Shown here: positions 9,155 through 53,903 of the stretch, piece after piece
Numbering within the stretch: position 1 is the stretch's first letter
Layout of the letters: each line of letters starts with the position of its first letter
The notes under the pieces: generated by a model
What the model was told of the DNA's origin: nothing
The model's database searches: none
Seen by the model: only the letters and a program-made list of their open reading frames with translations
Source of the DNA: an uncultured Litoreibacter sp.
GTDB lineage: Bacteria; Pseudomonadota; Alphaproteobacteria; Rhodobacterales; Rhodobacteraceae
Assembly: GCA_947494435.1 (NCBI GenBank)
Contig: CANLUY010000002.1
Coordinates: 62,001 to 126,000, forward strand
DNA length: 64,000 nucleotides
Reading direction: 5' to 3'
Program-made: the position numbers and the translations under genes

Positions 9155-9203
9155 TTGTACAAGTTGGGTTTTCAGCGCGAAAATCTTGCCCCAACTTGTA
9201 CAA
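9155..9203. repeat. 14-bp perfect inverted repeat, arms containing TTGTACAA
   Basis: TTGTACAAGTTGGG (9155-9168) is repeated in inverse orientation at 9190-9203 with a 21-base spacer. Each arm also carries the self-complementary octamer TTGTACAA, which is more like two operator half-units than a simple hairpin. It is 87 bases upstream of the VOC-Dabb start and upstream of the candidate RNA, so it could control either. Confidence 0.55.
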
Positions 9204-9403
9204 GAGAGAAGATGCAGCGCCGCAAAGCAGCGGGCCAAGTTGCTCCTGCGGCAATCCCTGTCGCTGACAAGAAAATCCGAAATCATCCCCAATCTGCCCA
9301 CAGAATTTTCCACCGTGAAGTCAGCATTTCATCCCCAAGAAATAGCTACTTCAAGGCAGAAAATATTTGCCAGATGGCGTGTGTCAGACCCACTGTAGGG
9401 TTA

Positions 9404-9754
9404 CCGCAGTAGAGTTCTTAGAACGACGCGGTGGACGCAAAGACCCTCTGGGGGAACTGGCAAGACAGGATAGAGGCTTCGGCTACAGGCTTGTTTTGTA
9501 AAGACTTCGGAGACGCAGGTCAGATCGTATGGGGGCGAAAGCCTCGGGGCGAAAAGGCGGTGTCAGTAGGGACGATGCGGGGGATCGCGGGGTCGCAAGG
9601 CCCATGTGGTTTCGGCTGAGAAGGGAGACCTTCGACAGCAAGCTGGGCCGGAATTCGCCCTCTGGGGGGACGTAAGGTTCAAGGAAGGCGTCAGGGGTGT
9701 CGCAAGGCACATGCAAGGGCTTCTACCCCGTGCACCTGACGCTTTTTCTTTTTC
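9404..9754 (+). ncRNA. Candidate structured non-coding RNA of about 350 nt, family not recognised
   Basis: This stretch has no credible protein but many local helices. Those I can draw are CCGC...GCGG enclosing GTTCT-T-AGAAC (9404-9431); CCTCT...AGAGG with inner CTG/CAG (9445-9476); GGGGC-GAAA-GCCTC (9532-9545); GGGTC-GCAA-GGCCC (9590-9603); GAAGG-GAGA-CCTTC (9620-9633); GTGTC-GCAA-GGCAC (9697-9710). Four of these are closed by GNRA tetraloops. The 3' end is a GC-rich stem followed by a T tract, which sets the strand as +. I compared it from memory with RNase P RNA, tmRNA, SRP RNA and 6S RNA and did not see their signature sequences. The 5' end is a guess. Confidence 0.5.
9688..9754 (+). terminator. 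Terminator of the candidate RNA
   Basis: GCGTCAGG (9688-9695) pairs perfectly with CCTGACGC (9735-9742), enclosing two small hairpins (GTGTC-GCAA-GGCAC and GGG...CCC), and is followed directly by TTTTTCTTTTTC. No protein gene on the + strand precedes it closely. Confidence 0.65.
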
Positions 9755-9899
9755 CGCCACTCAGTTTCGCGGGTCGCACAATTCTTAGCATCACATTGTA
9801 ATTCTTTGAAATTATGAGAAGAATAGTCAACGTTTCCCCATGAAATAGCGGGCCACACACCCCATATAACAAGCTGAACTCATGAAAAAGGGATGTGGC

Positions 9900-10172
9900 A
9901 TGTTTAAGTTCTTGTTTCGGAAGAAAGAGATTGAGGCCATCAAAGAAACACAACGCGAAACGGTCGAGCGTGCTGTTAAGGAACTCAACGAAATACTCGA
10001 GGGCATGGCGGAAAAGGCCAGAATTTCCGTCGATCTTCAATCTGGTTTGATTGATGTCGACCTACCAGAGCAGATGCCCGACGAAGCGCTTGCTCTGCCC
10101 GCGCCGGAGAAAGCAGAAACGGCTACGAAATCAGAAGAGACACCAGATGAAGAAAAACCAGCGGCGGCATAA
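9900..10172 (+). CDS. Small acidic-tailed hypothetical protein
   Basis: The 90-residue protein starts with a short basic stretch (MFKFLFRKKEIE) and a charged amphipathic helix (about residues 8-45, coiled-coil-like). It ends in a Pro/Glu-rich low-complexity tail. There is no signal peptide or known motif. I chose the ATG at 9900 because AAGGGA lies six bases upstream; the in-frame ATG at 9882 has no such site. The function is unknown. Confidence 0.55.
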   Translation: MFKFLFRKKEIEAIKETQRETVERAVKELNEILEGMAEKARISVDLQSGLIDVDLPEQMPDEALALPAPEKAETATKSEETPDEEKPAAA

Positions 10173-53826: not shown

Positions 53827-53903
53827 GCCGCCTTAGCTCAGTTGGTTAGAGCACTGGTTTGTGGAACCAGGGGTCCTCCGTTCAAGCCGGAGAGGCGGTA
53901 CCA
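53827..53903 (+). tRNA. tRNA-His (anticodon GTG)
   Basis: The 77-base cloverleaf has a 7-pair acceptor stem (GCCGCCT with AGGCGGT, ending in a G1-U72 wobble), a D arm, an anticodon stem CTGGT/ACCAG with loop TTGTGGA (anticodon GTG), a T arm CTCCG/CGGAG, A73 and an encoded CCA. The base before position 1 is T, so no G-1 is encoded, as described for alphaproteobacterial tRNA-His. Confidence 0.95.

Follow-up and report, generated by a model that had tools for sequence, protein, structure and literature searches.

The question raised by this locus is whether the interval 9404–9754 of the window (the whole 64,000-nucleotide stretch of an uncultured Litoreibacter sp. genome that was analysed) encodes a structured non-coding RNA, and, if so, what kind of RNA this is. 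The initial annotation had proposed such an RNA on the basis of hairpins closed by GNRA loops, and all four that it named were recovered by a hairpin scan of the + strand, each with a 5-pair stem (GAAA at 9537, GCAA at 9595, GAGA at 9625 and GCAA at 9702). A fifth GNRA hairpin found in the scan, GGGA at 9581, is unused by the consensus fold, which puts 9581–9588 in another helix. The density of such hairpins, thought at the outset to be unusual for chance, is indeed so: five with a stem of at least 5 pairs were observed in the interval, compared with a mean of 0.17 in 1000 dinucleotide shuffles, none of which reached five, and the antisense strand had none. The fold of the interval was also highly stable (z = -3.42 against dinucleotide shuffles), with none of 100 shuffles as stable.

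The interval 9404–9754 had been regarded as lacking a credible protein gene, and this held when homologues were compared. No reading frame is conserved in any of the six frames among 17 homologues, each frame having a homologue in which the longest stop-free run is 26 to 52 aa. A protein gene on either strand was rejected because no frame is open across the 17 homologues, the ORFs of the interval being mechanical only.

Compensatory changes in homologues gave very strong evidence for the structure. In the 17 full-length homologues, 52 of the 107 consensus pairs showed changes on both sides, and 92.3% of the 1773 cells were standard pairs. For each of five covariation measures, none of 500 shuffles reached the observed value in these 17 sequences and slid controls were lower throughout; the consensus structure was derived from the same alignment and is therefore favoured over its slid versions, which does not explain the bias between G-U (288) and A-C (26) in the consensus pairs. 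This excess of G-U over A-C points to the + strand RNA as the selected molecule. RNAalifold scored the alignment at -202, its reverse strand at -122.7 and 20 column-shuffled versions at -99.4 ± 4.1. In the class-wide 3' domain (55 sequences), 18 of 32 pairs had both-side changes and none of 500 shuffles matched this, the pair counts for the R2 and R3 structures described below leaning towards these structures, which were set by hand from the data; the junction stem of the terminator was paired in 99.8% of cells in the same number of sequences of the class. Alignments A4 and A8 do not contain L007–L009, whose 5' halves align poorly, or L023, whose 5' end is cut, and alignment A7 comprises 55 of the 58 listed stretches (without L008, L116 and L130).

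Homology, covariation and strand bias indicate that 9402–9754 (+) is a structured RNA gene and that no protein gene lies in the interval, the 5' end being placed from conservation and promoter spacing; the bounds initially assigned were right to a few bases. Covariation, the reading-frame test and the Rfam search described below all agree with the proposed structured non-coding RNA, and its promoter-like and terminator anatomy, together with the G-U/A-C bias, suggests that it is transcribed.

All elements of the fold lie on the + strand. The consensus fold begins with a 5' stem-loop (CCGC...GCGG, 9404–9434), followed by a central multi-branched domain (9436–9579), defined by alignment, fold and covariation, with two long arms at 9446–9512 and 9513–9563, the second carrying the GAAA loop. 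Fold and covariation then define an arm with a GCAA-capped hairpin (9581–9613), and the next arm, with a GAGA-capped hairpin (9615–9639), has both-side changes in all five inner pairs (9620–9624/9629–9633). The most conserved arm (9643–9682) consists of a CTGGGCC / GGTTCA stem around a CCC-TCTG-GGG hairpin; its core is invariant in the 17 sequences, and five of six pairs of its outer stem have both-side changes in the 55-sequence alignment. The terminator stem had been described as a perfect 8-pair helix with a T tract. This helix is real (GCGTCAGG at 9688–9695 paired with CCTGACGC at 9735–9742), and in fact runs outwards to about 9685/9745, giving some 11 pairs before the T-rich tract. Two more hairpins, at 9697–9710 (GCAA) and 9718–9729, lie between the stem arms, so that the terminator (9685–9745; stem GGCGTCAGG / CCTGACGC, then the T-tract) is a three-way junction, and it was missed by a simple terminator scan because its loop is longer than the scan permits.

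The first reading had not matched this RNA to RNase P, tmRNA, SRP or 6S RNA, and the covariance-model search agrees: no Rfam family matches the RNA in the window or in its relatives. At gathering threshold, Rfam 15 (4227 families) matched only a tRNA at 53827 in the window and nothing in loci L001–L009, and in 18 further loci gave one match, an rpsB element outside the RNA. A permissive search of 9300–9900 returned two matches at chance level (E 5.4 and 7.7). 6S RNA is a single long hairpin, interrupted and with a bubble at its centre; it was rejected here on account of the multi-branched fold and of the absence of an RF00013 match at the RNA. The whole genome had no RF00013 match either, the Caulobacter control being matched; as 6S RNA has been reported from Rhodobacter, no conclusion is drawn from this. 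Type III antitoxins (ToxI) are tandem repeat RNAs directly ahead of a toxN-type gene, and this class was rejected for the window locus, where neither of the two small ORFs that follow the RNA on the + strand (96 and 82 aa) was hit by a Pfam or PADLOC model. A cis-regulatory leader, riboswitch or attenuator, which should directly precede a conserved gene of the same direction, was rejected because the RNA has its own terminator, the downstream hydrolase gene lies on the opposite strand and the neighbours differ in other families. A mobile or phage RNA found no support: viral contigs had no match to two exact patterns, and a blastn search of phage and plasmid records with one 123-nt query gave none, both being searches that divergent copies would escape. 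No paper on the RNA was found among the main texts of open-licence PMC papers, and earlier detection in some RNA-seq table is possible. A structured RNA that stands alone, has an unusual control region and belongs to no Rfam family would constitute a new RNA family.

How widely the RNA occurs was assessed with DNA, pattern and covariance-model searches. In a DNA search that covered the window's own genome and 100 relatives, nine of the 101, its own included, were positive; of 20 genus-mates, six matched. An exact-pattern scan of genome contigs gave 18 stretches, the real ones being in Roseobacter, Ruegeria, Tateyamaria, Litoreibacter and a Paracoccaceae bacterium; L013 (Phycicoccus) was dropped as a seeming chance pattern match within a coding-like stretch. 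The contigs of L011, L014, L015, L016 and L025 match those of L004, L008, L006, L003 and L005, respectively, in length, and these loci were counted once. Three covariance models were used: R1 (17 sequences), R2 (48 sequences, partly trained on hits of the R1 search) and R3 (the class-wide 3' domain, 55 sequences, trained on some of the R2 class hits). As 7, 9 or 12 candidates were scored per genome in the large searches, the numbers of positive genomes are minimum values. Of 394 genomes of the home family (Rhodobacteraceae), at least 54 were matched by R1 and at least 61 by R2, with a single match in 60 of the 61. Among 385 genomes of Alphaproteobacteria, R2 matched at least 21 and R3 at least 29, three of the latter in the home family and 26 under 12 other family labels, the weakest R3 matches in this class draw being near the cut-off. 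In a phylum-wide draw, R3 matched at least seven of 299 genomes, all seven in the home family. Two opposite-strand matches (L106 and L111) were removed by a stricter cut. Unlike the home family, G594, G067 and G715 had two matches per genome in both class searches, which may represent duplicated RNA genes.

When 150 candidates per genome were scored with R2, none of 12 of the 14 DNA-negative genus-mates matched, and neither did two other genomes of the family; the window's own genome did. In two genus-mates the order lepA, hydrolase, pirin is kept, and neither an RNA match nor a box with up to one mismatch was found between lepA and the hydrolase gene. The RNA is thus distributed patchily over scattered lineages of Alphaproteobacteria, and its presence in six of 20 genus-mates by DNA and in none of the 12 others by R2 indicates that it is dispensable.

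The genomic neighbourhood was compared to see what surrounds the RNA in different lineages. In the window, lepA is followed by a gene with an autoinducer-binding domain and a glyoxalase-like gene, after which come the RNA, the two small ORFs and, on the opposite strand, an alpha/beta hydrolase gene. Of 50 family loci (own locus included), 31 had lepA and/or the hydrolase gene in the available flanking DNA by tblastn, and misses are not absences because the flanks are short. Where found, lepA is upstream on the strand of the RNA (12 of 12 family loci) and the hydrolase gene downstream on the opposite strand (21 of 21). Ten loci of other families have different neighbours (rpsB, a pyridoxal-kinase-like gene and others, named by eye), and such changing neighbours argue for action in trans. 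In L122, the Rfam rpsB element (935–1057, - strand) lies about 440 nt downstream of the RNA, ahead of rpsB.

Upstream of the RNA, on the same strand, three DnaA-box-like sites, which the initial annotation did not mention, precede a putative promoter. Site 1, TCATCCCCA (9283–9291), is degenerate in this genome and aligned with TTATCCCCA/TTATCCACC of family homologues; site 2, CTGCCCACA (9294–9302), lies 11 nt after site 1, is degenerate as well, and aligned with TTACCCACA/TTATCCACA. Site 3, TCATCCCCA followed by AGAAAT (9329–9337), comes 35 nt after site 2; many loci of the family have TTATCCMCAAGAAATTT in its place, and L120 and L125, which belong to other families, have TTATCCACAAGAAATTT. 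A putative -35 element, TTGCCA (9367–9372), has a TTG that is invariant in the 17-sequence alignment, with C next in most, and a putative -10 element was placed by eye at 9390–9395, 17 nt after the -35; a sigma-70 scan of the window did not detect this promoter. Family loci show the same arrangement: sites resembling TTATCCCCA, TTACCCACA and TTATCCMCAAGAAATTT are spaced by 11 and 35 nt, and T-rich DNA and TTGC come next. Further elements were seen in this region. A perfect 14-nt inverted repeat, TTGTACAAGTTGGG / CCCAACTTGTACAA (9155–9168 and 9190–9203), lies between the glyoxalase-like gene and the boxes, and is possibly an operator. Between box 3 and the -35, ATGCTGCAGTGC occurs in L095, L097, L102, L106 and L107 and as a variant in L118, and a GCAGGYGCAGAAA-like stretch is present further upstream in the family loci that bear ATGCTGCAGTGC.

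Boxes (TTATCCMCA, at most one mismatch) were counted in 76 entries, corresponding to 75 distinct loci (L128 and L147 are the same locus) and excluding L153 and L160, which have no located RNA end. In the DNA upstream of the RNA 3' ends, over as much as 1.5 kb, there were 131 sense and 53 antisense boxes, and downstream of the ends 20 and 12, respectively; in 42 of the 76 entries, a stretch of 110 nt holds at least two sense boxes. No sense box lies within 1.5 kb in eight entries (L145, L146, L148, L149, L155, L156, L158 and L159), all of them from outside the family; the RNA 5' ends of these are undefined, and antisense boxes are present. Of 48 family loci, 28 have a CcrM-type methylation site, GANTC, next to the putative -35, no more than 20 nt from the TTG anchor; among the 4946 TTG sites that served as controls in these loci, 145 have one (L130, which has no box in range, is not included). 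It was not found at the other 20 promoters, in four of which no TTG anchor was found. The N of GANTC is C in 23 cases and A in five, as expected if the site itself is kept. GcrA is encoded in all six home-family genomes tested and in three of six outside the family, as judged with a Pfam model that also matched an archaeal control.

These results are best explained, tentatively and at somewhat less than an even chance, by a stand-alone non-coding RNA gene of Alphaproteobacteria that is timed by DnaA (and by CcrM/GcrA where the site exists) and acts in trans as a multivalent scaffold or sponge. DnaA would bind the upstream boxes, and CcrM methylation and GcrA, where GANTC exists, would join it in timing transcription to the replication cycle; the RNA would then work away from its neighbouring genes, with its repeated arms serving as a scaffold or sponge for several copies of one RNA-binding protein. 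Binding of DnaA, CcrM or GcrA to these sites is presumed from their sequence. The window copy is a weak example, with no GANTC and with degeneracy in each of its three boxes, which counts against timing by DnaA and CcrM, and the 20 family promoters at which GANTC was not found, the eight entries that have no sense box and the lack of GcrA in three of the six genomes outside the family count against the DnaA/CcrM/GcrA explanation as well. On the other hand, the joint absence of RNA and boxes from the two genus-mates in which the rest of the locus is kept supports a linkage between them.

The same joint presence and absence would be expected if the DNA were the functional part, i.e. a datA/DARS-like site that titrates or converts DnaA and is remodelled by transcription of the RNA, which we consider improbable. 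To our knowledge, no conserved structured RNA is part of datA or DARS. These are non-coding chromosomal sites that act on DnaA (PMC10950094, PMC5010248), and the cluster of DnaA-box-like sequences found here is likewise intergenic; read-through transcription affects datA in E. coli (PMC10950094). The cluster linked to the RNA is, moreover, the only one in the DNA sampled. Among 60 sampled 20-kb stretches of three genomes, covering part of each, at least three boxes fell within 80 bp at one place only, the RNA locus of G023 (the sample also took in the G006 RNA, whose boxes are too degenerate to count), and in seven more 20-kb stretches, with a limit of 150 bp, a cluster was present only in the stretch with the G115 RNA. 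DnaA binding and a change of its nucleotide state define datA/DARS-like sites, and what is seen here is box-like sequences alone. Neither compensatory change nor G-U bias over a 350-nt RNA would be required of a DNA site.

It was also considered whether the boxes are not DnaA sites at all, with another factor binding TTATCCMCAAGAAATTT and the RNA having a role apart from the cell cycle. The conserved stretch exceeds a DnaA box, with AGAAATTT coming next, and DnaA binding is deduced from the known consensus, which is used also in PMC6699656. This reading has to account for phased 9-mers, as many as three, that come close to the consensus of DnaA and for a GANTC beside the promoter that points to the same circuit, and its probability appears low.

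A cluster of boxes followed by T-rich DNA and an RNA gene could further suggest a replication origin, alternative or relict, that the RNA would prime, and the cumulative GC skew has its minimum within the window at about 6–10 kb, adjoining the RNA. In the window's own genome the skew returns to positive values over the contig's first 40 kb, which makes the dip local rather than contig-wide; in G006 and G023 the skew of sampled stretches puts the origin elsewhere, and the G023 contig begins with dnaA-dnaN-recF-gyrB (named by eye), 0.98 Mb away. As the RNA also has its own terminator at its end, an origin with a primer RNA is very improbable, and the chromosomal origin oriC itself was disfavoured by the position of the RNA off the skew minimum in G006 and G023.

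The DnaA-timed, trans-acting scaffold or sponge draws further on the architecture of the RNA across the class. In close relatives of the window the RNA is predicted to be about 350–400 nt long, a chain of tetraloop-capped arms whose number depends on the lineage, closed by the three-way-junction terminator. The shared 3' end consists of GGCGTCAGG, two hairpins, the second of them with a conserved CCGC loop, and CACCTGRCGCC, with T next. Upstream of it, the arms (described by eye) are similar in design, each a stem that has an internal loop rich in purines and is capped by a tetraloop. L121 has a 33-nt arm in 10.5 tandem copies and L119 a 67-nt unit in 7.8 tandem copies; L120 and L125 have room for few arms only. 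In 53 loci, 202 tetraloop-capped hairpins were counted on the sense strand versus seven on the antisense strand, with RNA lengths outside the home family set by hand, and control DNA had 0.33 per 340 nt (162 stretches). Within the 17-sequence alignment, some 58 additional nt follow position 9563 in nine relatives (Roseobacter or Ruegeria), and two Ruegeria sequences lack one terminator hairpin. A sequence resembling a decayed copy of a terminator arm (CGTCAG..TGCAT..CCGCGTC..GCACCT) was seen about 100–200 nt after the RNA in L005 (about 1908–1960), L103 and L115.

Many hairpins in variable number, plus an intrinsic terminator, are also features of the CsrB/CsrC/RsmZ-type sponges, and a protein-directed action in trans is proposed here as well. 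CsrA is the best-known client of such tandem-hairpin arrays. It was absent from all six home-family genomes tested, so that a CsrA sponge was rejected for these genomes and CsrA is unlikely to be the arm-binding protein of the home family; CsrA was present in two of six genomes outside the family, where it may have a role. The present RNA also differs from these sponges in having UUCG or GNRA caps and purine-rich stretches beside the stems, and not GGA in an apical loop.

The arms might instead be a stabilising scaffold of a classical trans-acting RNA that pairs with mRNAs, a mode reported for CcnA and EcpR1, with only short exposed loops being of importance. EcpR1 is an alphaproteobacterial RNA that modulates the rhizobial cell cycle (PMC4414408), a likeness by description only, and CcnA of Caulobacter reportedly acts on the mRNAs of ctrA and gcrA (PMC8959179). 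The CCGC loop of the last terminator hairpin, well conserved class-wide, would fit such a mode of action. The strong selection seen on the stems would not, and the size of the RNA, the number of its covarying arms and the change in arm number are unusual for a pairing RNA; mRNA pairing is a rather unlikely reading.

Like the present RNA, CcnA is an alphaproteobacterial non-coding RNA with DnaA boxes, and is cell-cycle regulated (PMC8959179); the likeness is one of description, not of sequence, and CcnA differs in being 182 nt long, in lying inside the chromosomal origin and in having CtrA boxes. The RNA described here is 350–400 nt long in close relatives, has many arms, and in two genomes lies away from the origin defined by skew. 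An identity with CcnA was rejected by location rather than by sequence, as oriC beside hemE is not the setting of this RNA. The HRC-8-4 motif of Rhodobacterales is an order-limited structured RNA candidate too, and is set apart by its location as described in PMC8632094, being found mainly between cco operons, whereas the present RNA lies between lepA and the alpha/beta hydrolase gene. A further point of comparison is provided by large, multi-branched, stand-alone RNAs. OLE, GOLLD and ROOL are of this kind, with an unknown or structural role, and the present RNA differs from them in matching no Rfam family.

A bolder form of the DnaA-timed scaffold or sponge, which we regard as speculative and rather unlikely, is that the RNA is ancient and class-wide, an output of the DnaA/CcrM cell-cycle circuit in which an array of arms that bind protein, and that can expand, would sequester or assemble a factor once in each round of replication. 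No replication-coupled RNA scaffold of this kind was found in the open-licence PMC papers.

Large conserved RNAs whose role is undetermined are few, and the present RNA brings with it a hint about its control, suggesting that its function may be tied to the cell cycle. A family model would help genome annotators to locate a gene that lies outside all Rfam families. The DnaA-box-like sites and the methylation-type site in many relatives make the function testable in culturable bacteria of the Roseobacter clade, and, if the promoter is controlled by DnaA, a large RNA would be added to the cell-cycle network of the Alphaproteobacteria.
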